From the NCBI RefSeq assembly GCF_004015795.1, contig NZ_ML137219.1, positions 1-64,000 on the forward strand: a stretch of 64,000 bases of DNA. The letters run 5' to 3'. Each line of letters starts with the position of its first letter. Within the stretch, counting starts at the first letter, position 1. The notes beneath the pieces were generated by a model. The model saw only the letters and a program-made list of their open reading frames with translations, ran no database searches and was not told the DNA's origin. A program made the position numbers and the translations under genes. Below are positions 27,496 to 61,879 of the stretch, piece by piece. This DNA is from Falsirhodobacter deserti. Lineage in GTDB: Bacteria > Pseudomonadota > Alphaproteobacteria > Rhodobacterales > Rhodobacteraceae.

Positions 27496-27521
27496 GGAAC
27501 GAGGCGATCCCGCATCACGTT
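27496..27521 (+). promoter_or_regulatory. EcfG-type general stress promoter
   Basis: GGAAC (27496-27500), 17-bp spacer, CGTT (27518-27521). This matches the alphaproteobacterial general-stress sigma factor consensus. It lies 31 bp before the 28-codon membrane microprotein gene. Confidence 0.7.
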
Positions 27522-27552
27522 GAAAAGGGAAAGCTGCAACCGCGAGGATACC

Positions 27553-27639
27553 ATGTTCAAGTTCATCGGCGGCACCATCGGCGTGATCTTCCTGATCGGC
27601 CTTCTGGTGGTTATCGGGCTTCTGGCCCTGATCTTCTGA
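27553..27639 (+). CDS. 28-residue single-span membrane microprotein
   Basis: ATG at 27553, GAGG 7 bp upstream, TGA at 27637. It begins MFKFIGG, has one continuous hydrophobic helix rich in Ile, Leu, Gly and Val, and ends LALIF; there is one charged residue (K3). An EcfG-type promoter lies just upstream and a strong terminator just downstream, so it forms its own transcription unit. No family is recognised; a small stress-induced membrane peptide that partners a larger membrane protein is the natural guess. Its reality rests on promoter, ribosome site, composition and terminator agreeing. Confidence 0.65.
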   Translation: MFKFIGGTIGVIFLIGLLVVIGLLALIF

Positions 27640-27644
27640 TCTGA

Positions 27645-27674
27645 AAAGGCCCGCCGATCCGGCGGGCCTTTCTT
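27645..27674. terminator. Bidirectional terminator
   Basis: Stem AAAGGCCCGCC / GGCGGGCCTTT (11 bp) with loop GATCC, then TTCTTC on the plus strand and A-rich on the other side. It serves both the microprotein gene and the convergent alcohol dehydrogenase gene. Confidence 0.9.
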
Positions 27675-27676
27675 CT

Positions 27677-28726
27677 TCAGGCGGCGTCCAGCGACGCCAT
27701 GTCGATCACGAAACGATAGCGGACGTCGGCGCGGTCCATCCGTTCGAACGCTTCGTTGATCTGGTCCATGCGGATCATCTCGCATTCGGGCAGGATGTTC
27801 ATGCGGCCGCAGAAATCCAGCATTTCCTGCGTTTCGGCGATCCCGCCGATCAGCGACCCTGCAACGCGGCGGCGGCCCATCAGCATCGGCACGGTCACCA
27901 TCTCGTCCATCGGGCCAACCTGGCCGACGATGCACAGCGTGCCATCCACGTCCAGCAGCGGCAGATAGGGGTTCAGGTCGTGCTTCACGGGCACAGTGTC
28001 GATGATGACGTCAAAGCCCGAAGCTGCCTGCGCCATCGCATCCGCGTCCGAGGAGATGAGGAAAGCATGTGCGCCCAGTTCCAGCGCATCCCCTTCCTTG
28101 GACGGAGAGCGCGAGATCACCGTGACATGCGCGCCAAGCGCGACGGCCAGCTTGATCGCCATGTGGCCAAGCCCGCCCATGCCCACAACGGCCACGCGGC
28201 TGCCCGGACCCACGCCAAAGGTGCGCAGCGGCGAATAGGTGGTGATGCCGGCGCACAGCAGCGGCGCGGCGCGGGCAAGGTCCAGCCCCTCGGGCAGGCG
28301 CAGAACGAACTCCTCGCGGACGATCAGGTGCTTGGCATAGCCGCCCATCGTGATCTCGCCCGATTGGCGGTCGGGGCTGCCATAGGTCTGGGTCATGCCC
28401 TCGCGGCAATATTGTTCTTCGCCCGAATTGCACTGGTCGCAATGCAGGCAGCTGTCGACCATGCAGCCGACGGCAACGTGATCGCCCACCTTGTAGTCCG
28501 TCACGGCTGCGCCCACCTCGGTCACGCGGCCGACGATTTCATGGCCCGGCACGATGGGATAGGTATCGCCGCCCCAGTCGTTGCGGGCGGTGTGCAGGTC
28601 CGAATGGCACACGCCGCAATACAGGATCTCCATTGCCACATCCTCGGGGCGCAGGGCGCGCCGCTCGAATGTGTAGGGTTCAAGCGGGGCCGTGCTGCTT
28701 TTCGCGGCATATCCGATTGTTTGCAT
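27677..28726 (-). CDS. Zinc-dependent NAD(P) alcohol/aldehyde reductase (YahK/CAD-type)
   Basis: 349 residues, medium-chain dehydrogenase. Catalytic zinc ligands C40 (CGVCHSD) and H62 (GHE); structural zinc cysteines C93, C96, C99 and C107; nucleotide-binding GMGGLGHMA. The pattern is that of cinnamyl-alcohol-dehydrogenase-like enzymes such as YahK/AdhC, which reduce diverse aldehydes with NADPH. Start at 28726 has AAAGGA upstream. Gene order suggests aldehyde detoxification in the stress island (inference). Confidence 0.9.
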   Translation of the reverse strand: MQTIGYAAKSSTAPLEPYTFERRALRPEDVAMEILYCGVCHSDLHTARNDWGGDTYPIVPGHEIVGRVTEVGAAVTDYKVGDHVAVGCMVDSCLHCDQCNSGEEQYCREGMTQTYGSPDRQSGEITMGGYAKHLIVREEFVLRLPEGLDLARAAPLLCAGITTYSPLRTFGVGPGSRVAVVGMGGLGHMAIKLAVALGAHVTVISRSPSKEGDALELGAHAFLISSDADAMAQAASGFDVIIDTVPVKHDLNPYLPLLDVDGTLCIVGQVGPMDEMVTVPMLMGRRRVAGSLIGGIAETQEMLDFCGRMNILPECEMIRMDQINEAFERMDRADVRYRFVIDMASLDAA

Positions 28727-29016
28727 CGTGGTATCCTTTTCCGTCAGGGGCTGCATGCCCTGAATGCCAGCATATGGGGGCGCCGCGGCGCGATGCCAAC
28801 AGCCCGGCCAACAGCCCGGCGGCAGTGTCGCGGGCACGCAAGCGCTGCGATCGCCGTGCGTCGCGCTGCAGTTCCATCAGAAGGCGTGATGCCCTCCAGC
28901 GGAAAGCTCATGCCGGGCGGGGGCGGAAACGGGAGGCATGGCTTCTCCTGTCCCGGGATGCGGGCCTGTTCCATCAGGTTCCTCCCCCACCGGCAAGGGG
29001 ATGTTCGGGGCGCGGC
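28727..29016. other. Divergent gap between adh and the stress operon
   Basis: About 290 bp before the EcfG-type promoter. It contains a tandem GGCCAACAGCCC repeat (about 28795-28822) and GC-rich DNA but no convincing reading frame or RNA gene. The adh promoter must lie here on the minus strand. Confidence 0.5.
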
Positions 29017-29042
29017 GGAACAAGCCAGCCCCTGCAACCGTT
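29017..29042 (+). promoter_or_regulatory. EcfG-type general stress promoter
   Basis: GGAAC (29017-29021), 17-bp spacer, CGTT (29039-29042), 49 bp before the first gene of the four-gene small-protein operon. Confidence 0.75.
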
Positions 29043-29091
29043 TACCTGCCACCAGCGCAATCAACCGCGCCCGTCAAGACAGGAGTGGACG

Positions 29092-29409
29092 ATGAAGACC
29101 CCCACGACCGACCGGCTGCGCAGCGACATCGATTCAGGCCGCTCCGGCGATAAGGTGAATTTCTCCGATCCCGCGATGTCCCCGCTGGGCACGGATGACG
29201 AAGCCGCAGGCACGCCGAACACGCCCGAACAGATCCGCATGGCAGCACAGCACGAAACCACCCGCGGCGATGATCCGTCGGCCGGGCGCAAGGATCGCAA
29301 CCCCGAACTGCGTCAGCGCGACAAGGGGCGCTTCCTCTTCGCGATTGCCGGAATCATCCTTCTGGCACTGATCCTTGCATGGATTTTCGGCGCGATGGGC
29401 AACGGATGA
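29092..29409 (+). CDS. Small tail-anchored membrane protein
   Basis: 105 residues. The first 75 are polar and probably disordered; a single hydrophobic helix (FLFAIAGIILLALILAWIFG) lies at the C-terminus, so it is tail-anchored with the N-terminus likely cytoplasmic. AGGAG stands 6 bp before the ATG. First gene of an operon with three more small membrane-associated proteins, behind an EcfG-type promoter. No named family is recognised. Confidence 0.78.
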   Translation: MKTPTTDRLRSDIDSGRSGDKVNFSDPAMSPLGTDDEAAGTPNTPEQIRMAAQHETTRGDDPSAGRKDRNPELRQRDKGRFLFAIAGIILLALILAWIFGAMGNG

Positions 29410-29465
29410 ACAAGGCGACGGAACACGGGACCGTGAATCCCGTTGTGCCCCGGAAGGAGACGACG

Positions 29466-30347
29466 ATGGCCACCCCGACCGACCGGTCCCCGCTGCCGAA
29501 AGATCCGGAAAACCGCGCCAACGTTTTTTCCGACGCGCCGCCGAAACCGGACCGGGCGGCCCCCGGCGCCAAAACGACAACTGGCCCGGAGGGCCACCGA
29601 TCCAACAACGGAAAGGAAGAAGAAATGACCTATTCTGACACACCGGATCATTCGACCGACAAGCTGAAGAACCGCGCCCAGCACGAATACCAGGACGCGA
29701 AGGAACGCCTGCATGACAGCAGCGCCCGCCTGCGCCAGAATGCCAGCAGCAACCTGATGAACGCCGTTACGAGCGAGCTGGAGCGCCGCAAGTCCGGCAT
29801 GGGAGACGAGCTGCGCACCATCGCCAAGTCCCTGCGCCACGCTTCGGAAGAACAGGAATCCGAAGGCGTCACGGCACCTGCCGGCCTTATCTCCAAGGGC
29901 GCCGACCTGATCGAGGATCTGAGCGAGGAGCTGGAGAACCGTTCGGTCGATGACATGGGCCGTGCCGTTTCCGATTACGCCCGCGCCAACCCGGCGATCT
30001 TTGTCGGCGGCTGCCTGATTGCGGGCCTTGCCCTTGGCCGCGTGCTGACCGCCTCGACAAAGAACGTGCGTTCGGACCGCGAGCCGCAGTCGACATATGG
30101 CGCATCGCCCTATGCCGCGCCGGTACCCGCGCCGATGTCCACCTCCACGCCGAAGCCGCCGGCCCCCGCGACACCCGCCCCGACCACGGCAACACCCGCA
30201 TCCAGCACGCCGGCATCCGCAGGCATGGGCGCAACCCCTTCGGTCCGTACGGCTGGCGTGACGGAACCGTCGCCTGTCAAGCCCGCCACTTCGGCCACGC
30301 CGGGCTATGTTTCCCCGAAAAAGGAGACGGATAATGGCAAGCTTTGA
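29466..30347 (+). CDS. DUF883/ElaB-like membrane-associated protein
   Basis: 293 residues from the ATG at 29466, which has AAGGAG 6 bp upstream. Other in-frame starts are 29406 (ATGA overlap with the previous gene) and 29625 (GGAAAGGAAG upstream). Polar charged helices (about 55-150), one membrane segment (NPAIFVGGCLIAGLALGRVL), then a long Pro/Ala/Thr-rich tail. This layout recalls ElaB/YqjD-type inner-membrane stress proteins. Overlaps the next gene by 14 bp. Confidence 0.72.
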   Translation: MATPTDRSPLPKDPENRANVFSDAPPKPDRAAPGAKTTTGPEGHRSNNGKEEEMTYSDTPDHSTDKLKNRAQHEYQDAKERLHDSSARLRQNASSNLMNAVTSELERRKSGMGDELRTIAKSLRHASEEQESEGVTAPAGLISKGADLIEDLSEELENRSVDDMGRAVSDYARANPAIFVGGCLIAGLALGRVLTASTKNVRSDREPQSTYGASPYAAPVPAPMSTSTPKPPAPATPAPTTATPASSTPASAGMGATPSVRTAGVTEPSPVKPATSATPGYVSPKKETDNGKL

Positions 30348-30741
30348 CCAACGTCCCCCGCAGGACAACCGGTCGCTGACGGATCTGATTGCGGATCTGG
30401 TCCATGACCTGTCCGACCTGGTCCGAAGCGAAGGCCGTCTTGTCCGTGCCGAGATCACCGAAGCAGGCCGCCGCGTGGCCCATGGCGCCGAGATGGTCGT
30501 TGCCGGCGGGATCATCCTGCTGCTGGCCGCAATCGTCCTGCTTCAGGCCCTGGTCGTTGCGCTGGCGCATTGGGTCGGGCCGGGCTGGGCCTCGGTCATC
30601 GTCGGTGTCGTGCTGTTCGTGATCGGCGGGCTGCTGATCACCCGCGGCCGCAAGGACCTGTCCACCAAAGCGCTGATGCCCGAACGCAGCCTCGAGCAGA
30701 CCAGCCGCGATACCCGTCTTGTGAAGGAGCAGTTGAAATGA
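30334..30741 (+). CDS. Phage holin superfamily III / DUF1469 (YqjE-like) protein
   Basis: 135 residues. An N-terminal amphipathic segment (LTDLIADLVHDLSDLVRSEGRL) precedes two membrane helices (about 50-72 and 79-103), the standard DUF1469 layout. Despite the name, chromosomal members are not lytic holins but stress-associated membrane proteins. AAGGAG lies 7 bp before the ATG; the stop overlaps the next start. Confidence 0.85.
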   Translation: MASFDQRPPQDNRSLTDLIADLVHDLSDLVRSEGRLVRAEITEAGRRVAHGAEMVVAGGIILLLAAIVLLQALVVALAHWVGPGWASVIVGVVLFVIGGLLITRGRKDLSTKALMPERSLEQTSRDTRLVKEQLK

Positions 30742-31637
30742 GCGAGTCCCCCAAATCCATCGAAGCAGAGGTCGAAGCCAACCGCGCCAATGTCGAGGGC
30801 ACGCTGAACGCGCTGCGCGACAAGGCCTCGGTGCAAGGCATCATGAACGATGTCAGCCGCTATGTCGGCATCAACGATGCGCGCGGCACGCTGGAAGCGG
30901 CCGGCCGGCAGGTCAATGCGAACCCGGTGGCCTTCGGGCTGATCGGCCTGGGCCTTGCCTGCCTTGCAACGGGCATCGCACGCCGCCATCCCGACAATTA
31001 CGGCCCGCAGGATTCCATGAACAGCTCTTCCGTGGCCGGTGGCCGTTCGGGCGTGGGCGCACGGGTGCGCGAGTACAAGGGGCGGGTTCAGGGCTTTGCC
31101 GGTCAGGCGCAGCAGGGCGCGCATGATTACAGCGACAAGGCGAAGGACGGCGTAAACCAGTACACGAACGCCGCTTCCGAAAAGCTGCACGCCGCGCGCG
31201 ACAACCTGTCCGAGCGCTATGACAACACGCGTCATTCGCTGGCGGATCGCTACGAAAGCACCCGCACGCGCGTTTCGGACCTGTCCAGCCGCGCCTCCCA
31301 GCAGGTCAGCGCGCAACCGTTGATCTTCGGCGCTGTCGCCCTGGTTGCCGGTGCCGTTCTGGGTGCCGCACTGCCCAAGTCCAACGCCGAGAACCGCTGG
31401 CTTGGCCCGAGCCATGACCGCCTTGCCGAAGGCGCCCGCGACATGGCGAGCGAGCTGAAGGAACGCGCCACCGCCGCGGCCGAGGCCGGCCTGAACGCCG
31501 CCTCGCACACGGCGCAGGACGAAGGTCTGGTTCCCGACGAGAAGGGCAGCACCGTTGCCGAAAAAGTCCAGCACGTTGCCGAAGCCGCCGTCGAAGGCGC
31601 CAAGGAAGAGCTGAAGAAAGACAACAAGAACGCCTGA
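30738..31637 (+). CDS. DUF3618 domain protein
   Basis: 299 residues. The N-terminal DUF3618 motif (SIEAEVEANRANVEGTLNALRDK) is followed by a short hydrophobic segment near 65-82, a long charged Ala/Gln-rich helical middle, a second membrane segment (PLIFGAVALVAGAVLGAALP) and a Lys/Glu-rich tail. Last gene of the EcfG-type operon. Probably a membrane-anchored rod-like protein; function unknown. Confidence 0.83.
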   Translation: MSESPKSIEAEVEANRANVEGTLNALRDKASVQGIMNDVSRYVGINDARGTLEAAGRQVNANPVAFGLIGLGLACLATGIARRHPDNYGPQDSMNSSSVAGGRSGVGARVREYKGRVQGFAGQAQQGAHDYSDKAKDGVNQYTNAASEKLHAARDNLSERYDNTRHSLADRYESTRTRVSDLSSRASQQVSAQPLIFGAVALVAGAVLGAALPKSNAENRWLGPSHDRLAEGARDMASELKERATAAAEAGLNAASHTAQDEGLVPDEKGSTVAEKVQHVAEAAVEGAKEELKKDNKNA

Positions 31638-31641
31638 TCCG

Positions 31642-31665
31642 GGGCCGTTCGCGCGGCCCTTTCCC
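31642..31665 (+). terminator. Terminator of the small-protein operon
   Basis: Stem GGGCCG / CGGCCC with loop TTCGCG, followed by TTTCCCTT. It closes the 29.1-31.6 kb operon. Confidence 0.65.
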
Positions 31666-31792
31666 TTCGCGCCGGTTTCGCCAGGCCCAGCTTGGCGATC
31701 CGGCGCGAATTTGTTTGTGCCCCTCCCGCCGCAAGCTTGCGCAGGGTCCGCTTCTCCGCTAGGCGGTGCGGCCCATTTGCAGGAAAAGCGGC

Positions 31793-33022
31793 ATGACGAA
31801 CATTCTCGGAATCGATTTCGGGACCTCAAACTCGGCGGCTGCGATCGCCCATGATGGTCACGTGTTCCGCATTCCGGTGGAGGCGGGAACCGAAACGCTG
31901 CCAACGGCCGTGTTCTTTCCCGTGGGCGGCGGCATGCGCATCGGCGCCGCGGCGGGCCGCGCGCTGGTTGATGGCACCGAGGGGCGATACATGCGCGCGC
32001 TTAAAAGCGTGCTCGGCACCTCGCTTTTGCATGAATCACGGCTGATCGGCGGGCGCCGCCGGTCGGTTGCCGATATCATCGCCGCCTTTCTGACCGAACT
32101 TCGCACAAAGGCCGAAGCGCAGGCGGGCCGGCGCTTCACCCGCGTGCTTTCGGGCCGCCCGGTGCATTTCCACGCCGATCCCGCCCGTGACGCGCAGGCC
32201 GAAGCCGATCTTCGTGCCTGCTATCTTGCCGCCGGGTTCGAGGAGGTCAGCTTCATGGCCGAACCCGAGGCAGCGGCCGTGGCCGCCCAGGGCTTGGGCG
32301 GGGCGAACGATCTGGGGCTGATCGTCGATATCGGGGGCGGCACGTCGGATTTCACGGTGTTCCGCACGCAGAACGCCGCGCCGGAAATCCTTGCCAGCCA
32401 CGGCATCCGGCTGGGCGGCACGGATTTCGACCATGCCGTCTCGATGGCCCATGCCATGCCCGCCTTGGGCCATGGCAGCCAGCTGCGCCGCGAAATGGGC
32501 GACGGGCTTCTGCCCGTTCCCGTCGGCATCTTCAACGATCTGGCCACATGGGCGAAGATCCCGTTCCTTTACACCCCCGACACGCGGCGCATGGTGGCGG
32601 GCATGGTCAAGCTGGCCACCGATCAGCAGGCCATCACCCGCCTTGCCACCGTACTGGAGGATGAATCCGGCCACGATCTGGCCTTCGCGGTGGAACGGGC
32701 CAAGATCGCGGCCAACGGTGGCGCAGCCGACGCCCGGATCGAGATGGGGTTCATCGAACGCGGCCTGCGTCCGGGCGTCACCCCCGAAACGCTGGACGCC
32801 GCCCTTGCCGCCTTCAGGTCCGACCTGCGCCGCGCCGCCGCCGAAACGCTGGACCGGGCAGGCCTTCCGGCCAGCCGCATCGGGCGGGTGATCCTTGTCG
32901 GCGGTTCCAGCCTGATGGGGCTGGTGGCGGATGAAGCGGCAGCGCTTTGCCCGGGCGCCCGCATCCTGCGCAGCGAGGCGTTCACCGCGGTGGTGGACGG
33001 GCTGGCGCTGGCCGCGCGCTGA
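31793..33022 (+). CDS. Hsp70-like ATPase lacking a substrate-binding domain (YegD-like)
   Basis: 409 residues. The actin/Hsp70 ATPase signatures are clear: GIDFGTSNSAAAI near the start, IVDIGGGTSDFTVF in the middle and VILVGGSSLMG near the C-terminus. The protein ends right after the ATPase fold, so the usual peptide-binding domain and lid are absent, as in E. coli YegD. A chaperone-like role in the stress island is plausible; the partner is unknown. Start at 31793 is preceded by AGGAAAAG. Confidence 0.88.
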   Translation: MTNILGIDFGTSNSAAAIAHDGHVFRIPVEAGTETLPTAVFFPVGGGMRIGAAAGRALVDGTEGRYMRALKSVLGTSLLHESRLIGGRRRSVADIIAAFLTELRTKAEAQAGRRFTRVLSGRPVHFHADPARDAQAEADLRACYLAAGFEEVSFMAEPEAAAVAAQGLGGANDLGLIVDIGGGTSDFTVFRTQNAAPEILASHGIRLGGTDFDHAVSMAHAMPALGHGSQLRREMGDGLLPVPVGIFNDLATWAKIPFLYTPDTRRMVAGMVKLATDQQAITRLATVLEDESGHDLAFAVERAKIAANGGAADARIEMGFIERGLRPGVTPETLDAALAAFRSDLRRAAAETLDRAGLPASRIGRVILVGGSSLMGLVADEAAALCPGARILRSEAFTAVVDGLALAAR

Positions 33023-33063
33023 TCACGCCATAGGTATGGGCGGGCCTGCAACACGGACCGTCC

Positions 33064-34875
33064 ATGCCCCACACTCCGCTTCCCCCCCGCCGCGACGATG
33101 ACGGCTTTGTTCCCCTTGACGCCTATGGCGCGCTTGGCGAAGGCCGATCGGTCGCGCTTTCGGCCGAGGATGGCGGCATTGACTGGTGGTGCGTGCCCAA
33201 CATGGACAGCCCGCCCCTGTTCGACCGGCTGCTGATCGGTTCGGCCGAATTGCCCGACGGCACATATGCCGGCCATTTCACCATCACGCCGACCGATCCC
33301 TTCCGCGTGTCCCGCACCTATCGCGATCACAGCAATGTTCTGGAAACCCGCTTCATCACCGATGGGGGGGAGGCGGTGCTGACGGAATCGCTGAACAGCG
33401 GCACCGCCGGCCGCATGCCATGGGCCGAACTGGGCCGGCGGCTGGATTGCGTGCGCGGCCGGATGGGATTTCAGCTGACGTTGCGGCTTGGCCATCGTGC
33501 GGGGCGGTGCAGCCCTTATCTTTCGCATGCGGGCAAGCACTGCCTGTTCCATGTGGGCGAAGTTCTGGGAGTCTTCCTTTACGACAGCGACGCCACCGAC
33601 CTGGCGGTGCAGGATGACAAAACCGAGGGCCGGTTCGAGATGACGGAAGGCCAGCGGCACACTTTCGGCATCGTGGCCGGGGCCGCCGAACCGCTGGTCG
33701 TGCCGAAGCTGGAGGCGGTGGACAGCCGCATCGACCTGTCCGACAAGGAATGGCGGGACTGGGCGGTGCTGTTCCATGACGGGCAGGATCTGTCCAGTTT
33801 CATGCTGCGGCAGGCGCTGGCGCTGAAGATCCTGCTTTATTCGCCCAGCGGGGCGATCGCCGCGGCGGCGACATCCTCGCTTCCCGAACGCATCGGCGGC
33901 GACAAGAACTATGACTACCGCTATGCTTGGGTGCGCGATGCGGGCCATACGATCGTGTCGTTTCTTGACCTTGGCGCGGATGCCGAGGCGAAGGCCGCGA
34001 TGACATGGCTGCTGAACCAGCTGGCGGCCCACGGCTCGCAGGTGTGTTTCAGCCTTGATGGCGGCGTTTACAAGAACCTGGAGGAGGTTCCGCTTCCCGG
34101 CTATCGCGGCAGCCGCCCCGTGCTGCTGGGCAACCAGGCGGCGGGCCAGCACCAGCATGGCACCTATGGCGACATCTTCGAAACGGTGGGCGCCTTCACG
34201 CGGCAGGGGCACGTGATCGATGCCGGAAGCGCCGAAACCCTGTCCCATCTGGCCGACGAATGCGCCGACATGTGGCGCCAGCCCGACAGTGGCATCTGGG
34301 AACTGCCGCAGATCGAACATTACACCATGTCCAAGATAAACTGCTGGCAGGCCCTGTCCCGCGCGGTGGAAATGGCCGACCACGGCCACCTGCCCACCAC
34401 CTGCCGCGACCGCTGGGACCGTGAACGCCTGCGGATCGCCGACTGGATCCAGACGCGCTGCTGGAACGAAAAGCTGGGCGCCTACACGATGGTGCCGGAT
34501 TCCGACAAGCTGGACGCCTCTGTCGCGCTGGCGGTCCGGTTCGGCTTCGACGGAAAGGACCGGCTGGAACGCACGCTGGATGCGATCGACCGGCATCTGG
34601 GCGCGGGGCCGTTCCATTACCGCTATTCCGGGATGGAGGAGGAGGAGGGCTGTTTCCTTGCCTGTTCGTTCTGGATGGTGGATGCGCGGCTTCGGCTGGG
34701 CCAGAAAGACCGCGCGCGCAAGGCGTTCGATGCGCTGCGGGCGGGCCTTGACCGCGGCGTCGGCACCCTGCCCGAAATGGTGGATCCCAAGGATGGCTCG
34801 TGGTTGGGCAACATGCCGCAGGGGCTGACGCATCTGGCCGCGCTGCAGGCTGCGGCAGGGCTTCTGCGCGCCTGA
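33064..34875 (+). CDS. Glycoside hydrolase family 15 (glucoamylase/trehalase-like)
   Basis: 603 residues, no signal peptide, so cytoplasmic. An N-terminal beta-sandwich (about 15-240) precedes an (alpha/alpha)6 barrel with the NYDYRYAWVRDAGHTI motif, the proposed general acid E413 in GIWELP and the general base in the MEEEEG run near 525-528. Bacterial GH15 enzymes without a leader usually cleave trehalose or alpha-glucans. 41 bp after the Hsp70-like gene, so probably co-transcribed. Confidence 0.9.
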   Translation: MPHTPLPPRRDDDGFVPLDAYGALGEGRSVALSAEDGGIDWWCVPNMDSPPLFDRLLIGSAELPDGTYAGHFTITPTDPFRVSRTYRDHSNVLETRFITDGGEAVLTESLNSGTAGRMPWAELGRRLDCVRGRMGFQLTLRLGHRAGRCSPYLSHAGKHCLFHVGEVLGVFLYDSDATDLAVQDDKTEGRFEMTEGQRHTFGIVAGAAEPLVVPKLEAVDSRIDLSDKEWRDWAVLFHDGQDLSSFMLRQALALKILLYSPSGAIAAAATSSLPERIGGDKNYDYRYAWVRDAGHTIVSFLDLGADAEAKAAMTWLLNQLAAHGSQVCFSLDGGVYKNLEEVPLPGYRGSRPVLLGNQAAGQHQHGTYGDIFETVGAFTRQGHVIDAGSAETLSHLADECADMWRQPDSGIWELPQIEHYTMSKINCWQALSRAVEMADHGHLPTTCRDRWDRERLRIADWIQTRCWNEKLGAYTMVPDSDKLDASVALAVRFGFDGKDRLERTLDAIDRHLGAGPFHYRYSGMEEEEGCFLACSFWMVDARLRLGQKDRARKAFDALRAGLDRGVGTLPEMVDPKDGSWLGNMPQGLTHLAALQAAAGLLRA

Positions 34876-34883
34876 CCCGCGCC

Positions 34884-34909
34884 GCGCAGGCGGGGCTTTC
34901 CGCCTGCGC
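34884..34909 (+). terminator. Hairpin after the GH15 gene
   Basis: Perfect 10-bp stem GCGCAGGCGG / CCGCCTGCGC with a GGCTTT loop. No T-run follows, so it may end transcription only with help from Rho or protect the message. Confidence 0.55.
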
Positions 34910-34921
34910 GCAACCCTTGCG

Positions 34922-34946
34922 GGAACATCGTCCCCTTGCCCCCGTT
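34922..34946 (+). promoter_or_regulatory. EcfG-type general stress promoter
   Basis: GGAAC (34922-34926), 16-bp spacer, CGTT (34943-34946), 29 bp before the SDR gene start. Confidence 0.68.
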
Positions 34947-34975
34947 GATGCCGGGCAACGCAATGGAGGCGACCG

Positions 34976-35833
34976 ATGAAAGATTTTCCCAAACCGCCCT
35001 TCCCCGAACAGCAGCAGGACATGCCGGGCAGCACGGACAAGATGGATCCGCGCCCCGACCACGGCGAAGACAGCTACAAGGGTTCGGGCAAGCTGGAGGG
35101 GATGAAGGCGATCATCACCGGCGGCGACAGCGGCATTGGCCGTGCCGTGGCCATTGCCTATGCCCGCGAAGGGGCGGACGTTCTTATCGCCTATCATTCC
35201 GAACACGAGGAAGCGGCCGAAACCAAGCGCCTGATCGAAGCCGCGGGCCGCAAGGGTGTCGCGCTGGCCTGCGATCTGAAGCGCCCCGACGAATGCCGCC
35301 GCGTGGTTGAAACTGCGGTGAAGGAACTGGGCGGGCTGGACATCCTTGTGAACAATGCCGCCCATCAGGCCAACATCACCGAATTCACCGATATCCCCGA
35401 CGAGGAGTGGGAGATCACCTTCGCCACCAACATCCATTCGATGTTCTACCTGTCGAAGGCCGCCGTTCCGCACATGAAGCCGGGATCGTCGATCATCAAC
35501 ACGACCTCGGTCAATGCCGACACGCCGCGCCCCACGCTGCTGGCCTATGCCACCACGAAAGGCGCGATCCACAACTTCACCGGCGGGCTGGCGCAGTTGC
35601 TGGGCGAAAAGGGCATCCGCGTGAACTGCGTGGCCCCCGGCCCGTTCTGGACGCCGCTGATCCCGTCGACCATGCCCGCAGAAAAGGTCAAGACCTTCGG
35701 CCAGCAGGTGCCGATGGGCCGTCCGGGCCAGCCGGCGGAAATCGCACCGGCCTATGTCATGCTGGCCGATCCGGTTTCCAGCTACACCTCGGGTGCGACG
35801 ATCGCCGTCACCGGCGGCGCGCCCTTCATCTGA
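34976..35833 (+). CDS. SDR-family oxidoreductase (YghA/general stress protein 39-like)
   Basis: 285 residues. A polar N-terminal extension (about 40 residues, rich in Pro, Gln and Asp) precedes the Rossmann core [20 protein letters not shown] motif, catalytic serine region TTSVNADTP and YATTKGA (Tyr-x-x-x-Lys). This extended form is typical of YghA and Gsp39, glucose/alcohol dehydrogenase-like enzymes induced by general stress, which agrees with the promoter in front. First gene of a three-gene operon. Confidence 0.88.
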
Positions 35834-35855
35834 TCGCGAAAAACAGGAGGACACC

Positions 35856-37025
35856 ATGAAAGCCATCACATGGCACGGCAAAAGCGACATGCGTTGCGAC
35901 AACGTCCCCGACCCCAAGATCGAGGACGGGCGCGACGCGATCATCAAGGTGTCCTCCTGCGCGATCTGCGGGTCGGACCTGCACATCTATGACGGGGTGA
36001 TCCCGCATGTGCACCACGGCGACATCATCGGCCACGAAGCCATGGGCGAGGTGGTCGAGGTGGGCCGCGACAACAAGGCCCTTTCGGTGGGCGACCGCGT
36101 GGTCGTGCCCTTCACCATCGCCTGCGGCGAGTGCTTCTTCTGCAAGCGGGGCTTCTTCTCTGGCTGCGAACGGTCCAACCGCAACCACGATCAGGCGCGC
36201 AAGCTGTGGGGCAATTCCCCAGCCGGCCTGTTCGGCTATTCGCACATTCTGGGCGGCTATGCGGGCGGTCAGGCCGAATTCCTGCGGGTGCCCTTTGCCG
36301 ATGCCGGCCCGATCAAGGTGCCCGACAACCTGACCGACGATCAGGCGCTGTTCCTGTCCGACATCTTCCCCACCGGATACATGGCGGCAGAGTTCTGCGA
36401 TCTGAAGGGCGGTGAAACCGTCGCGATCTGGGGCTGCGGTCCTGTCGGCCAGATGGCGATCCGCTCGGCCTTCATGCTGGGGGCGGAACGCGTCATCGCG
36501 ATCGACACCGTGCCCGAGCGGCTGGCGCTGGCGGCGCAGGGGGGCGCCGAAACGCTCGATTTCCGCGATGTGGACATTTACGACGAGATCATGGCCCGCA
36601 CCGAAGGGCGCGGCGCGGATGCCTGCATCGACGCAGTCGGCACCGAGGCCGACATGCTTTCGGGCTTCAGCGCCGTGATCGACCGCGTGAAGATGGCCAC
36701 CTTCATGGGCACGGACCGTCCCTTCGTGCTGCGCCAGGCCATCATGTGCTGCCGCAACTTCGGCACCGTCTCCATCGTGGGTATCTATGGCGGGTTGCTG
36801 GACAAGATCCCCATGGGTTCGGCCATCAACCGCGGGCTGACCTTCCGCATGGCGCAAACGCCGGTGCAGCGGTATCTGCCGAAGCTGCTGGATCACATCC
36901 AGGAAGGGCGGATCGATCCGTCATTCGTGATCACCCACAAGGGAAGCCTTGAAGACGGGCCCGAGCTTTACAAGACCTTCCGTGACAAGAAAGACGGATG
37001 CATCAAGGTGGTGCTGAACCCATGA
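35856..37025 (+). CDS. Zinc-dependent alcohol dehydrogenase, formaldehyde-dehydrogenase-like
   Basis: 389 residues. Zinc ligands C38 and H60/E61, structural cysteines C90, C93, C96 and C104, and nucleotide-binding GCGPVGQMA. Length and the inserted [16 protein letters not shown] region resemble the glutathione-independent formaldehyde dehydrogenase branch; the substrate is otherwise unknown. AGGAGG 5 bp upstream of the ATG; 22 bp after the SDR gene and overlapping the next gene. Confidence 0.88.
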
Positions 37026-37771
37026 CACTTGCAGTCGTAACCGGAGCGTCCAGCGGGATCGGGCTGGAAATGGCGCGCATCTGCGTGGCTGAGGGGGACG
37101 ATCTGATCATGATCGCGAACGAGCCCGAGATCCACACCGCCGCGGGCGAATTGCGCGCCGAAGGAATTCACGCCGATCAGGCCACGGCCGAAGGATGCGC
37201 CACAATTCTTGACGCCATCGGCGGGCGCGAGGTGGACCTTCTGTTCCTGAACGCCGGCACCAGCCTTGTGGGCACCGTCCAGCAGCAGGAGATGGAGGAG
37301 ATCGAGCGGATCATCCAGACCAACATCCTTGGCACCGTGCGCCTTGCCCATCCGCTGTGCCGGCGCATGGTGGCGCGTGGCAGCGGGCGGATCCTGATCA
37401 CCGGCTCCATCATGGGATACATGGCGGGAAGCTGGCAAACCGTCTATGCGGGCACCAAGGCGTTCCTGAACACCTTCGCGGTCGCCCTTGGGCACGAGTT
37501 GCAGGATACCGGCGTTTCCGTCACCTGCCTGATGCCGGGCGCCACGGAAACCAGCTTCTTCACCCGCGCGGGCCTTGACGATACCGCCATAGGAAAAATG
37601 AAGAAGGACGATCCCGCGATGGTGGCCCGTGCAGGCTATGACGCGATGATCGCCGGCCGGGCGCAGATCACGCCCACGCTGAAGAACAAGCTGCAGGGCG
37701 CCGCGTCAGAGGTGATGCCCGCCCCGCTTGTTGCAGGGCTGAGCGAGCGGATGTTCAAGCCGCGCGACTGA
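37022..37771 (+). CDS. SDR-family oxidoreductase
   Basis: 249 residues. Rossmann motif [15 protein letters not shown] motif (LFLNAGTS), catalytic Ser in ITGSIMG and YAGTKAF. Classical short-chain dehydrogenase with no subfamily-specific feature. Third gene of the stress-promoter operon, overlapping the preceding stop (ATGA). A terminator follows. Confidence 0.86.
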
Positions 37772-37778
37772 TCGCATC

Positions 37779-37810
37779 AAGGGGGCAGCACTGCGGGCTG
37801 GCCCCTTCTT
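37779..37810 (+). terminator. Terminator of the SDR operon
   Basis: Stem AAGGGG-x-CAGC / GCTG-x-CCCCTT with one G-G mismatch, followed by CTTCTT. Confidence 0.6.
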
Positions 37811-37898
37811 CGCAACTGCCGGTTGTGTGACGGGATTTTCCCGAACCGATACGATTTTGCAGGTTGACCTGCCCCCCTTCCAAGGCAGATCAGGCCAG

Positions 37899-37918
37899 AC
37901 CGGCCGGTACTGGCCGGT
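37899..37918 (+). promoter_or_regulatory. Dyad in front of the sugar porter gene
   Basis: Inverted repeat ACCGGCC-N6-GGCCGGT, 23 bp upstream of the porter's ATG. Its position between promoter and start suggests an operator or an mRNA hairpin near the ribosome site; no regulator is identified. Confidence 0.4.
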
Positions 37919-37941
37919 TACGGAAGAAGGACCACGGAAAC

Positions 37942-39360
37942 ATGCAAGAAGATCACGATCAGGACGGCACGTTGTCGCGCCGCCTGATGCTTGTCACGGG
38001 CACAGCGGCCCTTGGCGGGTTCCTGTTCGGCTATGACAGCTCGATCATCAACGGCACGGTTGATGCCATCCGCAACGAATTCGGGCTGTCGGCGGCGGCG
38101 ATCGGCTTCACCGTATCCTGCGCCCTGCTGGGGGCCATGATCGGCGCATGGTATGCCGGTGTCTGCGCTGAAAAGTTCGGGCGCGTGCGCACGATGGTCA
38201 TCGCCTCGGTCCTGCTGACGGTCAGCGCCATCGGCTCTGCGCTGGCCTTCGGCGCGACGGACCTGATCATCTGGCGCTTCGTGGGCGGGGTTGGCGTCGG
38301 CTTTGCCTCGGTCATCGCGCCGGCCTATATCGCCGAGGTGTCGCCCGCGGGCAGCCGCGGACGCCTTGGAACCCTGCAGCAGATGGCGATCGTGTTCGGC
38401 ATCTTCCTGTCGCTTCTGGTCAGCGCGATCCTTGCCGGCATGGCGGGCGGCGCGGCGCAGGCGCTTTGGGGCGGCACGGCATGGCGCTGGATGTTCCTGA
38501 CCGAGGTCGTGCCCTCGGCCATTTACGGCCTTCTGGCGATGCGCCTGCCCGAATCTCCCCGCTATCTGGTGGAACGCAACCGCATCGACGAGGCGCGGAC
38601 CGTGCTGGACAAGGTCGTGGGCATCAGGAACCCGGACCGTCTGAGTGCCAAGATCGAGGAGATCCGCGGCACCGTCGGTGCCGAGGCGCGCAAGTCGTTC
38701 GCCGACCTGAGGGGCGGCAGCTTCGTGTTCCACGGGGTCGTCTGGATCGGGATCATCCTGTCGGTGTTCCAGCAATTCGTCGGCATCAACGTGATCTTCT
38801 ATTACTCCACGACGCTGTGGCAGTCGGTGGGCTTCCAGGAATCGGATTCGTTCATGATCTCGGTCATCATGTCGATCACGAACATCGTGGCCACCTTCAT
38901 CGCCATCGCGCTGATCGACACCGTGGGCCGGCGCAAGCTGCTGATGGGTGGGTCGGCGCTGATGGCGCTGTCGCTGGCGGTGATGGCCATCTCGTTCAAC
39001 CATGCCGAGATCGTGGACGGCGCGCTGTCCCTGCCCGATCCGTGGGGGCCCGTTGCACTGGTGGCGGCCAACGTGTTCATCGTGGGCTTCGGCGCCAGCT
39101 GGGGCCCCGCCGTCTGGGTCCTTCTGGGAGAGATGTTCCCCAACCGCATCCGCGGCATGGCGCTCGGCCTTGCCGGCGCGGCGCAGTGGCTGGCCAACTT
39201 CGTGGTCAGCACCACCTTCCCGATCCTGTCGGGCATCGGGCTGGACTTCGCCTACAGCCTTTACGCCTTCTTCGCCCTGCTGTCGCTGTTCTTCATCTGG
39301 CGCGCGGTTCAGGAAACCAAGGGCCGCTCGCTGGAGCAGATGGTGACCGGGCGGCGCTGA
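37942..39360 (+). CDS. Sugar porter family MFS transporter
   Basis: 472 residues, 12 membrane helices. Sugar-porter signatures: GFLFGYDSSIINGT (helix 1), the RxGR-type KFGRVRT loop, PESPRYL, FQQFVGINVIFYYS (helix 7) and the DTVGRRKLLM loop. Likely H+/hexose or pentose symporter (GalP/XylE/GlcP group). No partner genes in the same transcription unit. Confidence 0.9.
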   Translation: MQEDHDQDGTLSRRLMLVTGTAALGGFLFGYDSSIINGTVDAIRNEFGLSAAAIGFTVSCALLGAMIGAWYAGVCAEKFGRVRTMVIASVLLTVSAIGSALAFGATDLIIWRFVGGVGVGFASVIAPAYIAEVSPAGSRGRLGTLQQMAIVFGIFLSLLVSAILAGMAGGAAQALWGGTAWRWMFLTEVVPSAIYGLLAMRLPESPRYLVERNRIDEARTVLDKVVGIRNPDRLSAKIEEIRGTVGAEARKSFADLRGGSFVFHGVVWIGIILSVFQQFVGINVIFYYSTTLWQSVGFQESDSFMISVIMSITNIVATFIAIALIDTVGRRKLLMGGSALMALSLAVMAISFNHAEIVDGALSLPDPWGPVALVAANVFIVGFGASWGPAVWVLLGEMFPNRIRGMALGLAGAAQWLANFVVSTTFPILSGIGLDFAYSLYAFFALLSLFFIWRAVQETKGRSLEQMVTGRR

Positions 39361-39408
39361 CCCCGCCTGCCTTGGGGCGTGCCATGCGCCCCGAACCCCG
39401 AACGAAAG

Positions 39409-39439
39409 AAGCCGCGCAGGAAGATCCCTGCGCGGCTTT
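39409..39439. terminator. Bidirectional terminator
   Basis: Perfect 12-bp stem AAGCCGCGCAGG / CCTGCGCGGCTT with loop AAGATC, T-rich on both strands' 3' sides. It sits between the convergent porter and PRC-barrel genes. Confidence 0.88.
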
Positions 39440-39459
39440 CCGGTTTCATGGAAAACGGA

Positions 39460-39894
39460 TCATTCCCAGAAGTTGCGGTCCAGCTCCGGCAGGTCGCGCA
39501 GTTCTTCCTGCGACAGGCGCGTCACATAGGAAAAGTCGCGGTTCTTGCCGGCAACCAGTGCAAGATCGGACACGGGCAGCAGGACATGGCGATCGCCAAG
39601 GCCAAGGAAGCCGCCGATCTCGGCCTCGATCGCGACCAGCTTGCCTTCGCTGTCCAGAACCACGTCCTCGATCTCGCCCACCTTTTCCCATTCGGATTCG
39701 ACGGTGGTATAGGTTGCGCCCTCGAACGACTGCTGGTCGATGCCGGTGGCGACGCTGTAAACGGTGCCGTCTTCCAACTCATCCCCGCTGACAAGGTTCG
39801 CCGACGAGGTAAGGTCGACGGTGCCCGCATCCTGCGCATGGGCAGCGCCGGCAGCAAGCATCAGGGCGATAAGCGAAGGGGTCACGATCTTCAT
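39460..39894 (-). CDS. Secreted PRC-barrel domain protein
   Basis: 144 residues. Signal peptide of about 20 residues ending AGAAHA, so periplasmic. The following VGEIEDVVLDSEGKLVAIEAEIGGFLGLGDRHVLLP is a classic PRC-barrel. These proteins are common in alphaproteobacterial stress regulons with no known activity. GAGGAG lies 6 bp before the ATG, and an EcfG-type promoter lies 29 bp upstream. Confidence 0.86.
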   Translation of the reverse strand: MKIVTPSLIALMLAAGAAHAQDAGTVDLTSSANLVSGDELEDGTVYSVATGIDQQSFEGATYTTVESEWEKVGEIEDVVLDSEGKLVAIEAEIGGFLGLGDRHVLLPVSDLALVAGKNRDFSYVTRLSQEELRDLPELDRNFWE

Positions 39895-39922
39895 GGTGGT
39901 CTCCTCTTGGGTTGCCATGCCC

Positions 39923-39947
39923 AACGTGACAGCCCCCCGGCAGTTCC
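39923..39947 (-). promoter_or_regulatory. EcfG-type general stress promoter
   Basis: On the minus strand GGAAC (complement of 39943-39947), 16-bp spacer, CGTT (complement of 39923-39926), 29 bp before the PRC-barrel ATG. Confidence 0.68.
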
Positions 39948-54261: not shown

Positions 54262-54942
54262 TCAGCCGGCCACCAAAATCCGCAGGCTGCCGATCTGGGG
54301 GGCGGCAACACGGCAGGCGGTCAGGATGCGAAGCGCCAGATGCGTTTCCACATAGTTGGCGTGAAAGCGGGTGGGCGCTTCAAGGGTCAGCCCGCCGCCA
54401 GTCTCCTCCAGCGGACGAAGCTGGCGCAGCCAGGTCGCGTAAACAGTGGGCGCCTCTTGCGCGATGTGCTGCATGACGCGGTCCCAGGGGCTTTGGCCGT
54501 CGGGCTGGGGAAAGGCGATGATGTTGGGCGTCCCTGCGGGGACAGGTGGGGCATCATCGGGTGCAAGGCGCGCCTCCAGATCCCGACCAACGGCGGCCCA
54601 ATGGGGCGCGGTGTCGGCAAGGATGCGATCAAGGCCCAAGGCGTATTCGGCCACCCGGCCCCGTCCACCCTGACGGCGCAGCACGAGCCAGCCTTTTTCC
54701 CGAAGCCGCGCCATTTCCCGCTTCACCGTCCGTTCATCAACCGACCAAAGGGCCGCGATCTCGCGCTGGCCGGTGGCAAGGCGGTCGGCCCGCCAGTCGT
54801 AGCGGGCCGTGATCAGCACGATCAGCCGAAGGGCAAGGCGCTGCGCCATTGCCTCCCCTGCCAGTCCTGCCGCGCCGATGGCCGTCAGAACATCATATTT
54901 CCTCGACGAGGCTCCCTGCCCCGCCAATCGTGCCACTGCCAT
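54262..54942 (-). CDS. DnaA-like plasmid replication initiator
   Basis: 226 residues from the ATG at 54942, which has GAAGG 6 bp upstream; an upstream in-frame ATG at 54960 is also possible. The N-terminal half holds a winged-helix segment (about 55-92: REIAALWSVDERTVKREMARL). The C-terminal part (about 151-207) resembles domain I of chromosomal DnaA: PWDRVMQHIAQEAPTVYATWLRQLRPLEE, then LEAPTRFHANYVE. No ATPase domain. This is the layout of the DnaA-like replicases of Rhodobacterales plasmids, next to parAB. Replicon copy control and specificity should lie here. Confidence 0.82.
   Translation of the reverse strand: MAVARLAGQGASSRKYDVLTAIGAAGLAGEAMAQRLALRLIVLITARYDWRADRLATGQREIAALWSVDERTVKREMARLREKGWLVLRRQGGRGRVAEYALGLDRILADTAPHWAAVGRDLEARLAPDDAPPVPAGTPNIIAFPQPDGQSPWDRVMQHIAQEAPTVYATWLRQLRPLEETGGGLTLEAPTRFHANYVETHLALRILTACRVAAPQIGSLRILVAG
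54529..54544. repeat. parS-like palindrome, copy 1
   Basis: CGTCCCTGCGGGGACA, inside the replication initiator gene; 14 of 16 bases match the perfect copy at 56707. Confidence 0.6.
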
Positions 54943-55042
54943 CTTCTGCCTTCCCCGCATCCTGACGGGATATTGATAGATCCGGGGTATCTTCCCCGGC
55001 TTAACGAACCGCGCGCTGCCACCGTGGTTCCGGCAACACAAC

Positions 55043-55358
55043 GCTTTTCATTTCCCGACCACCATTTGCGTTGAGTGGGGCGATTCTGTCAAGGGCCGCC
55101 CTCATTCCCTCCTCTTCAGGATCTGAAGAAGGGTCTTATAGGTATTGGGGGACACCCTAGGCGTCCCTTTAAGAGGTGTGAAATGTCCCCTTAATGCTGG
55201 ATAAAGCCGCAAGATGTCCCCTGATCGGGGGCAGAGGGCCCTAGCCTGTCCCTGCGGGGACGCTTTTGCATCTCTTTATATACATAATCTTTGCGCCTTT
55301 CGCAAATCCGGCGTAAACCGAATATATAAAGTGAAGAGCGTTGCCTTTCGGAGAAATG
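55043..55358. other. Candidate replication origin and control region
   Basis: 316-bp non-coding gap between the divergent initiator and parA genes, less GC-rich than the rest. It holds TCTTCAG-GAT-CTGAAGA (55113-55129), the half-sites GGGGGACA (55147), TGTCCCC (55184) and TGTCCCC (55215), one parS-like palindrome (55247), TTTGCG-N5-CGCAAA (55290-55306) and the inverted AT blocks CTTTATATA (55274) / TATATAAAG (55323). No reading frame is convincing. Origin and parAB promoter function are inferred from position. Confidence 0.6.
55247..55262. repeat. parS-like palindrome, copy 2
   Basis: TGTCCCTGCGGGGACG, about 95 bp before the parA start. Confidence 0.65.
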
Positions 55359-56663
55359 ATGTTCACCCATGACGACCTTGCGCGGCTTCAGGCGCAATCG
55401 CTGAAGATGCAGGGCTGGATCCGCCAGCAGACCTACTCCCCCGAGATGGAGAAGACGCTGCGCCGCTTTTCCAGCTGGGAACTGGCCGAACTGATCTTCC
55501 GCGTGAACCAGTCGACCCTGCGGGGACGCATGGCCACCGAACCCTCCCTCCCCCAGGGGCTGGTGGAGGAGGATGGCCGCCAGCGCTGGTATACGCTGGA
55601 GGAGATCAACGAGATCCGCCGCAAGCTGAAGATCAACCGCAAGTCCCTGCTGCCGCCCCGCCCTGCCGGCAAGCGGGCCATTCGCGCCGCCATCGCCAAC
55701 TTCAAGGGCGGTGCGGGCAAGTCGACCGTGGCCCTGCACTTCGCCCATGCCGCGGCACTGGACGGCTATCGGGTGCTGGCGGTGGATTTCGACCCGCAGG
55801 CCACCCTGTCCCATTCCATGGGTCTGTCGGACGTGGCCGAGGAGTTCACGGTCTGGGGCATTATGGCGCGGGACCTGATCCGCGAAACCGAACGGATGAA
55901 CAGCGCCGCCCGCGGCGCGGAATCCGGCGCGGCCCTGCCCCAACGAAAGCTGCCTTCCGCCATCACCGGGATGGGTCTGACCGATCTGCGCACGATGGAC
56001 TTCATCAAGCAGACATCCTGGCCGACGGTGGATGTCATCCCCTCCTGTGCCAACTCTGCCTTCGTGGAATTTGCCTCGGCCCAGTACCGGAACCTGAACC
56101 CCGAATGGTCCTTCTTCGCCGCCGTGTCCCGCTATCTCGATACGTTGCCGGATGATGCCTATGACATCGTGATCTTCGACTGCCCGCCGGCCATCGGTTA
56201 TCAGTCCATGAATGCGGTGTTTGCGGCTGATGTTCTTTATGTGCCCTCGGGTCCCGGCTATTGGGAATATGACTCCACCACCTCTTTTATCGGTCAGCTG
56301 GCCGAGGCGCTTGGCGATCTGAGCCAGTTCCAGGGGATCGTCCCCGCGGGGACAATGACGCTCCCCAAGGCGTTTCTGGATCTGCGCTTCCTGCTGACGC
56401 GGTATGAGCCGAACAACGAATTGCACCGCGCGATGCATCAAGCCTTCCGTAAGGTGTTCGAGGGTAGGGTCGCCGAACACCCGATCGAGATGACGCGGGC
56501 GGTGGAACAATCAGGCCGGTTCCTGTCCTCGATCTATGAAACCGATTATCGCGAAATGACGCGCGAAACATGGCGCCGCGCCCGCGCCTCGTTCGACAGG
56601 GCGTATATGGAGTTCCGCGACAACCTTGTTGCGGCATGGGACAAGCTGGAGGATGAAGCATGA
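55359..56663 (+). CDS. parA: Plasmid partition ATPase ParA (RepA-like)
   Basis: 434 residues. An N-terminal DNA-binding extension (about 1-100, with a helix-turn-helix region YTLEEINEIRRKL) precedes the ParA/MinD ATPase with the deviant Walker A KGGAGKST at 116-123, VDFDPQATL and Walker B IVIFDCPP. This long form (type Ia) also binds its own promoter. Start at 55359 has GGAG 5 bp upstream; ATG 55356 is too close. Overlaps parB (ATGA). Confidence 0.93.
   Translation: MFTHDDLARLQAQSLKMQGWIRQQTYSPEMEKTLRRFSSWELAELIFRVNQSTLRGRMATEPSLPQGLVEEDGRQRWYTLEEINEIRRKLKINRKSLLPPRPAGKRAIRAAIANFKGGAGKSTVALHFAHAAALDGYRVLAVDFDPQATLSHSMGLSDVAEEFTVWGIMARDLIRETERMNSAARGAESGAALPQRKLPSAITGMGLTDLRTMDFIKQTSWPTVDVIPSCANSAFVEFASAQYRNLNPEWSFFAAVSRYLDTLPDDAYDIVIFDCPPAIGYQSMNAVFAADVLYVPSGPGYWEYDSTTSFIGQLAEALGDLSQFQGIVPAGTMTLPKAFLDLRFLLTRYEPNNELHRAMHQAFRKVFEGRVAEHPIEMTRAVEQSGRFLSSIYETDYREMTRETWRRARASFDRAYMEFRDNLVAAWDKLEDEA
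55513..55528. repeat. parS-like palindrome, copy 3 (degenerate)
   Basis: CGACCCTGCGGGGACG, inside the parA coding sequence; the most divergent copy. Confidence 0.4.
56339..56354. repeat. parS-like palindrome, copy 4
   Basis: CGTCCCCGCGGGGACA inside parA; its 14-bp core GTCCCCGCGGGGAC is a perfect palindrome. Confidence 0.65.
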
Positions 56664-57733
56664 TCAAGCGCCGCACTTTCGATATCGACTTCCCCTCCGA
56701 AGAGCCTGTCCCCGCGGGGACAGAGCGCGAGGCCCGTCGCGGCCCCATGGCCGCTGCCATCAGTGAGAACGCCGAAGCACTGCGGGAACGCCAGCAGGCC
56801 GAGGCCGCGATCCGGGCCGAAAATGACCGTCTGGCCCATGAACTGGTGCGGTTGAAGAAGCTTGGCCTCGTCACCGACCTGATCCCGCTGGACAAGATCC
56901 GCGCCACGAAGCTGACCCGCGACCGAGCCCCTGACCGAGACCCCGAGCTTGATGAGCTGAAAGAATCCATCCGCGGCGTGGGCCTGTCGAACCCGATCCG
57001 CGTGGAGGCTGCGGCCGATGGCAATTTTGAACTGATTCAGGGCTTCCGCCGCCTTGCCGCCTATCGCGAACTGTTCGAAGAAACGGGGGAGGAGCGGTTC
57101 GCTGCCATCCCCGCCGGGATGGTCGCGCAAGGGGAGACCTTGGAAAGTCTGTACCGGCGCATGGTCGATGAAAACCTTGTTCGGCGGGATATCAGTTTTG
57201 CGGAAATGGCGATTCTGGCGCGCAGCTATCTTCAGGATCCTGAGACATCCGCCTTCTCAATCGATCAGGCAATTGCCACGCTGTTCCAATCGGCGGGGCG
57301 GCAGAAGCGCGTCTATATCCGCAACTTCGCTACGCTGCTGGATCGGATCGGGATGCACCTTCTGCACCCGCACTCCATCCCCCGTGCCCTTGGTCTGGAC
57401 GTTTTGAAACGGGTGGAGCGGGAGCCGGGCGCGGCCACCATGCTGGGCCGCCTGTTGATGGCGCAGCCCGAACGGTCGGACACGGACGAACTTGCTGTCC
57501 TGCGCGATTTTGCCGCCGGCGCAGGCAAGGTAACGCCGCCACGTCCGGCGCGCGGTCCGGGCAATCCCGGTGCCAAGACAACCCTGCGCGTTGCGCGCGG
57601 TGAAGATGTTGCCCGCTGCACTGCAACCCACGGTCGTGTGGAACTGCGGATGGAGCGTGACTTCAGCGCCGTCGACCGGCACCGTCTTGAACAGGCGATC
57701 GAAGCGTTCCTTGCCTCGCTGGACGATAACTGA
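56660..57733 (+). CDS. parB: Plasmid partition protein ParB (RepB-like)
   Basis: 357 residues. A ParB N-terminal domain follows a coiled-coil-like lead: LIPLDKIRATKL, then NPIRVE and ELIQGFRRLAAYREL (the GxRR-type nucleotide-binding box), ENLVRRDIS, and a helix-turn-helix region near FSIDQAIATLFQSAGRQKRVYIRNF. Binds parS sites and loads on DNA. Coupled to parA by a 4-bp overlap. Confidence 0.92.
   Translation: MIKRRTFDIDFPSEEPVPAGTEREARRGPMAAAISENAEALRERQQAEAAIRAENDRLAHELVRLKKLGLVTDLIPLDKIRATKLTRDRAPDRDPELDELKESIRGVGLSNPIRVEAAADGNFELIQGFRRLAAYRELFEETGEERFAAIPAGMVAQGETLESLYRRMVDENLVRRDISFAEMAILARSYLQDPETSAFSIDQAIATLFQSAGRQKRVYIRNFATLLDRIGMHLLHPHSIPRALGLDVLKRVEREPGAATMLGRLLMAQPERSDTDELAVLRDFAAGAGKVTPPRPARGPGNPGAKTTLRVARGEDVARCTATHGRVELRMERDFSAVDRHRLEQAIEAFLASLDDN
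56707..56722. repeat. parS-like palindrome, copy 5 (perfect)
   Basis: TGTCCCCGCGGGGACA; with one more base each side (56706-56723, CTGTCCCCGCGGGGACAG) it is an 18-bp perfect palindrome, within codons 16-22 of parB. Confidence 0.75.
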
Positions 57734-61784: not shown

Positions 61785-61879
61785 CGAAACTTTCGCAGTT
61801 TGTGCAAATGTCTGGCATGCCGCCGCGTTTCGGCACGCTATATCGGTCGATGAACCGGAACCGACAGAAGGAGAATGCG

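Follow-up and report, generated by a model that had tools for sequence, protein, structure and literature searches.

Probable EcfG-type promoter elements precede yohP and other stress-type genes on a probable extrachromosomal replicon of Falsirhodobacter deserti

The first 64,000 nucleotides of contig NZ_ML137219.1 from the alphaproteobacterium Falsirhodobacter deserti, hereafter called the window, carry five exact matches to GGAAC-N16/17-CGTT, the form taken by promoters of the general-stress sigma factor EcfG. Four are located on the forward strand, beginning at 27496, 29017, 29420 and 34922, and the fifth occupies positions 39923-39947 of the reverse strand. An initial annotation of this DNA had listed four such sites shortly before start codons. 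All four are present, the one at 29420 had been missed, and, in the order given, CGTT ends 31, 49, 21, 29 and 28 bp before the start codon. One hundred dinucleotide shuffles of the window give an expectation of 0.81 sites, with a maximum of 4 in any single shuffle. The window is the start of a contig of 257,933 bases (C2), one of seven in a genome of 2.98 Mb that also includes the 2.29-Mb contig C1.

The first of these sites (27496-27521, with a 17-nucleotide spacer) lies directly before yohP (27553-27639, forward strand), which codes for a hydrophobic protein of 28 residues that begins with MFKF, ends with LIF and matches the Pfam YohP model PF25659 with 46.1 bits against a cut-off of 27. An inverted repeat resembling a terminator, recognized by eye, follows immediately (27645-27671), and thus yohP looks monocistronic. 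The same Pfam model is matched above its curated cut-off by all 12 members of our alignment. The NCBIfam equivalog model PRK14762 is not reached (14.3 bits against a cut-off of 58), and we therefore regard the gene as a member of the YohP family rather than a strict equivalog. The possibility that it represents a new miniprotein family was dropped once the match to PF25659 was found. The product is predicted to reside in the inner membrane.

We compared seven Falsirhodobacter genomes, counting this one and including F. xinxiangensis and F. flavus. Each has yohP, at 82-93% identity in the other six and at differing loci, and in each an exact site is found 20-31 bp upstream of the gene. Synonymous changes far exceed non-synonymous ones (pooled ratio of non-synonymous to synonymous polymorphism, pN/pS, 0.17), as is seen under coding constraint.

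The placement of the motif was assessed by demanding a start codon, a Shine-Dalgarno-like element and coding-type codons 15-60 bp downstream of a site. All five window sites pass this test, although they are somewhat favoured, because 16 genes from this region served to train its codon model. Of the 74 exact sites in the genome, 31 pass when the strand of the motif is read and 6 when the other strand is read; the background pass rate is 3.2% (905 of 27,944 sampled positions). The test is strict, in that it rejects the sites before nepR, a second sigma factor gene and rpoH, all of which are described below. Spacer length was examined in the same manner by letting k in GGAAC-N(k)-CGTT run from 8 to 26. 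In the window, matches stand before a credible gene start in 3 of 3 cases for k = 16, 2 of 2 for 17, 1 of 1 for 18, and 1 of 2 for both 20 and 21, with none at all other lengths. When the window is combined with L009 and ten stretches of relatives, the passing fractions are 7 of 8 (16), 3 of 4 (17), 2 of 2 (18), 1 of 3 (20) and 1 of 4 (21), and no remaining length gives any.

The initial annotation had recommended looking for ecfG, nepR and phyR elsewhere in the genome, and all three are found, together with a HWE/HisKA_2 kinase gene. They are located on C1, and not on the replicon of the window. The order is phyR (reverse strand), a divergent pair of exact motifs, nepR, ecfG and the kinase gene. 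PhyR has sigma-like and receiver domains and scores 363 bits against a cut-off of 240; NepR (C1:96217-96315) matches PF18557 with 58 bits (E 3e-15) and its gene adjoins ecfG. The sigma factor reaches 332 bits (cut-off 270) with NF009198, a model titled only 'RNA polymerase sigma factor', and we infer that it is EcfG because its gene sits beside nepR and phyR. The kinase scores above cut-off with PF07568 and PF07536, and below it with the PhyK model itself. The suggestion that an EcfG system would be notable in Rhodobacterales was abandoned. NepR is present in 188 of 394 genomes of the family, and having the system is therefore ordinary; the corresponding figure in a sample of the class is 76 of 387, and a passage in PMC5830050 describes a PhyR-EcfG locus in Rhodobacter sphaeroides as well.

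A second EcfG-like sigma factor of the extracytoplasmic function (ECF) type is encoded on C1 near 287.5 kb (L189:852-1349). This 166-residue protein has as its best NCBIfam model that of EcfG, at a score below cut-off, and an exact motif is found 35 bp before its gene. Given these features, and that EcfG paralogues are described as common in the abstract of PMC3892343, one could propose that this protein is the main reader of the promoters and that the phyR-linked EcfG does not drive them directly. Paralogues are expected to have a common motif, so the motif separates neither sigma factor from the other, and all seven genomes of the genus have an exact motif in front of nepR-ecfG. On balance we consider the second sigma factor an unlikely candidate for this role. 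A gene for RpoH on C1 near 388.8 kb (L191:912-1784; PRK07500, 450 bits against 315) is likewise preceded by an exact motif, 94 bp from the chosen ATG, which suggests that EcfG may act on RpoH in a cascade.

The association of yohP with this promoter type extends beyond the genus. A scan of a genome contig collection recovered 133 YohP relatives, and the counts that follow cover the best 80 of these 133, which we divided into 54 alphaproteobacterial and 26 gammaproteobacterial loci by organism name and general knowledge. The aligned start is ATG in 77 of the 80 and GTG in one, and in the remaining two (L146, L149) translation would have to begin a little further upstream. GGAAC-N16/17-NGTT occurs 10-80 bp upstream of 32 of the 54 alphaproteobacterial genes (CGTT in 18), where other positions in the same loci lead one to expect 0.36 for NGTT and 0.21 for CGTT. 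The spacer is 16 nucleotides in 27 cases and 17 in 5, and each other length from 8 to 26 gives 0 or 1. No such site is found upstream of any of the 26 gammaproteobacterial genes. These alphaproteobacterial loci are not independent, as many are from Paracoccus and at least four (L107, L134, L142, L168) repeat genomes that are also in our other comparison sets. NepR is present in 38 of the 40 YohP-bearing alphaproteobacterial genomes searched and in none of 8 gammaproteobacterial ones, while in the family sample YohP is found in 6 of 394 genomes, all 6 of which have NepR. The class and family samples were drawn differently from the YohP set, and we thus attach no P value to this co-occurrence. 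A search for neighbours common to the yohP loci was dominated by open-frame noise, and its readable cases are near relatives with the same flanks. Plasmid records gave no match to yohP, a negative that carries no information, since low-complexity filtering acts against a query of such hydrophobicity.

Given their placement, spacing and conservation, and the presence of the core genes, the window sites are in all likelihood genuine EcfG-type promoter elements, as the initial annotation had proposed. Several observations nonetheless weigh against this interpretation. The motif total for the genome, which had been put forward as a check, is 74 exact sites and does not exceed the 86 found with a reversed-pattern control. 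As the reversed pattern is just as common, we rejected the number of motifs as an argument for EcfG, give it no evidential weight and examined position instead; the evidence is position and conservation. The exact site before a triad of window genes described below is kept in only 2 of the seven Falsirhodobacter genomes. The yohP site in one congener (G004) overlaps a terminator-like hairpin and may be fortuitous. Among the alphaproteobacterial loci, 22 of 54 have no site within 80 bp of yohP, although in three of these (L132, L142, L154) an exact site precedes csbD directly upstream of yohP (CsbD: Pfam 61-64 bits against a cut-off of 40). Finally, Geminicoccus flavidas has the yohP site with no match to NepR, and Azospirillum halopraeferens and G051 have yohP, again with no NepR match. 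As a separate observation, L100 also has csbD-yohP with a site before csbD, and it very probably derives from the same genome as L142, with NepR at equal places.

The abundance of the reversed pattern and the overlapping hairpin in G004 are what one would expect if the matches were due to chance, given that GGAAC and CGTT are short and that AACGCC...GGCGTT terminator hairpins reproduce the pattern. However, every one of the five window sites stands before a gene start, the spacers centre on 16-17, and sites are retained at loci that are not syntenic, and we therefore judge chance to be a very improbable explanation. By eye, such hairpins can imitate GGAAC-N-CGTT and inflate motif counts, and they are seen upstream of yohP in L071, L072, L073 and L075 and at other sites in this genome (for example, C1:288342). 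Taken as the explanation for the whole set of sites, promoters read by EcfG are very likely.

The initial annotation had expected genes of stress-regulon type behind the promoters. This is supported by the DUF1469, DUF3618-like, SDR (short-chain dehydrogenase/reductase) and PRC-barrel genes, but the assignment of genes to sites changes, in that the first site fronts yohP and the DUF1469 and DUF3618-like genes belong behind the previously missed one. The second site (29017-29042, forward, N17) precedes a gene for a 105-residue protein with a hydrophobic C-terminus and no Pfam family (29092-29409, forward), and the exact site is found in all three genomes of the genus that have a clear orthologue, this one counted. 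The third site (29420-29444, forward, N16) precedes the triad, whose forward-strand genes code for a 293-residue protein with no Pfam family (29466-30347; an internal ATG at 29625 is an alternative start), a DUF1469-type protein (30334-30741; PF07332) and a DUF3618-like protein (30738-31637; PF12277 at 23.4 bits, just under the cut-off of 24.9). Homologous triads are found in all seven Falsirhodobacter genomes, with identities of merely 25-37% in two. Genes for an Hsp70-family protein (31793-33022, forward; PF00012) and a trehalase-like enzyme of glycoside hydrolase family 15 (33064-34875, forward; PF00723) come next, and each is possibly cotranscribed.

The fourth site (34922-34946, forward, N16) precedes a gene for an SDR oxidoreductase (34976-35833, forward; PF13561), which the initial annotation had termed 'Gsp39-like'. 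Among 15 homologues examined, paralogues included, 9 have GGAAC-N16-NGTT within 60 bp upstream, 3 of them with CGTT. A further homologue in this genome (L047, C3:64164-65009) contains one in-frame TGA and is possibly decayed. Because only 22 bp separate the SDR gene from that of a zinc alcohol dehydrogenase (35856-37025, forward), the two probably form an operon. The start of a second SDR gene (37022-37771, forward), named by eye and by similarity to SDR proteins, overlaps the dehydrogenase gene. The reverse-strand site (39923-39947, N16) precedes a gene for a PRC-barrel protein (39460-39894, reverse; PF05239) that, by eye, has a signal-peptide-like start. GGAAC-N16-[C/T]GTT is found 28-32 bp before this gene in 6 of the seven Falsirhodobacter genomes (CGTT in four, TGTT in two), with the caveats that the match in G003 has one in-frame TGA and that G004 has only a weak match, which lacks the site. 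Elsewhere in the genome, exact motifs precede genes for DUF892, DJ-1/PfpI, PRC, DUF3072 and OmpA-type proteins, as well as an entericidin-like gene that scores just below cut-off; the first four of these are likewise of types associated with stress. No EcfG-type site was found with three patterns in front of the Dps gene at 61850-62362 of the window.

If sites were spread uniformly over the five largest contigs, clustering as seen in the window would have a probability of 0.018 when all 74 sites are used and 0.0002 for the 31 promoter-placed ones. The initial annotation had spoken of a general-stress island. Such local clustering is unlikely to arise by chance, but C1 has two further clusters of five sites, one of which is the ecfG region itself, and the window genes are scattered in most congeners; 'island' is a fair description at the local level. 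Behind the motifs of the other cluster on C1 (L216, C1:1428000-1447900) are a DUF892 gene and a PRC gene divergent from a DJ-1/PfpI gene.

C2 is probably an extrachromosomal, plasmid-like replicon because it carries a replication and partition module (54265-57733) that codes for a DnaA_N-domain protein on the reverse strand and RepA/ParA-like and RepB-like proteins on the forward strand, the latter two below their NCBIfam cut-offs. That the replicon encodes its own partition functions could suggest that the stress genes form a mobile cassette that moves as a unit, and in G006 the triad and the alcohol dehydrogenase, second SDR and PRC genes all lie within about 9 kb. However, the yohP, 105-residue protein and SDR genes are at other places in congeners, and the relocated yohP (seven of seven) and 105-residue protein genes (three of three) keep their exact sites, as do SDR homologues in part. 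Judged by gene positions in the congeners, a mobile cassette is improbable, and genes that acquired their promoters separately and came to lie near one another are the likelier reading.

In the mechanism that we propose, stress would cause the HWE/HisKA_2 kinase to phosphorylate PhyR, phosphorylated PhyR would bind NepR, and the EcfG thereby freed would direct RNA polymerase to start at GGAAC/CGTT. This order of signalling steps is the current model as set out in a passage of PMC5830050. The putative targets on the plasmid-like replicon would be yohP, the 105-residue protein gene, the operon of the triad, the SDR-alcohol dehydrogenase operon and the PRC-barrel gene. We infer that these genes are induced by stress and depend on EcfG, and that YohP in this genus would enter the inner membrane, reduce the proton motive force and damp down metabolism, as reported for Escherichia coli. 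A search of the literature found no stress-regulation study on Falsirhodobacter among the matches listed.

The EcfG part of this scheme is textbook wiring, and the regulon adds one more example of a system already described. Among the five targets, yohP is the most telling, and its link to the motif is the part worth following. Portions of PMC5437024 state that tagged YohP is nearly undetectable in Salmonella without rpoS, and portions of PMC12719787 that YohP made early in E. coli reduces the proton motive force and triggers the stringent response, an effect termed 'metabolic silencing'. The latter source also mentions homologues beyond the gammaproteobacteria and cautions that native conditions may differ. 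Our literature searches found, among the matches listed, no work that treats YohP together with EcfG or yohP as an EcfG target. A strict RpoS-like -10 element (CTAYAMT, random rate 0.07%) was found within 120 bp upstream of none of the 26 gammaproteobacterial yohP genes, and the RpoS side is therefore that of the Salmonella paper alone. Given the EcfG-type sites in alphaproteobacteria and the need for RpoS in Salmonella, it appears that the same small protein is controlled by general-stress sigma factors from two distinct groups. We consider it probable that YohP, at 27-28 residues, is a shared output of bacterial general stress responses, driven by EcfG in many alphaproteobacteria and by RpoS in enterobacteria. 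If so, the quieting of membrane and metabolism by YohP would be a core stress function and not an enterobacterial oddity. With the yohP site, a small protein whose function is debated acquires a second link to stress, one that offers clear promoters and many non-pathogenic hosts. Genes as short as yohP are readily overlooked by gene callers, and regulon lists may therefore lack them.

The arrangement in F. deserti resembles the known PhyR-NepR-EcfG systems of Alphaproteobacteria in its core proteins, its divergent phyR and nepR-ecfG promoters, its motif and its stress-type targets, and differs in that five targets, yohP included, cluster on a second replicon. The PhyR system of R. sphaeroides, for which PMC5830050 reports a role in membrane stress, belongs to the same order and has a similar gene layout. 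It is found in a different genus, and its NepR-like protein is described there as 25% identical to NepR. YohP, known as a stress membrane protein from E. coli, has 27 residues in E. coli and Salmonella and 28 here, and the proteins share PF25659, hydrophobic character and a link to a general stress sigma factor. That link is RpoS dependence in Salmonella, according to the portions of PMC5437024 cited above, whereas in Falsirhodobacter an EcfG-type promoter stands in front of the gene.

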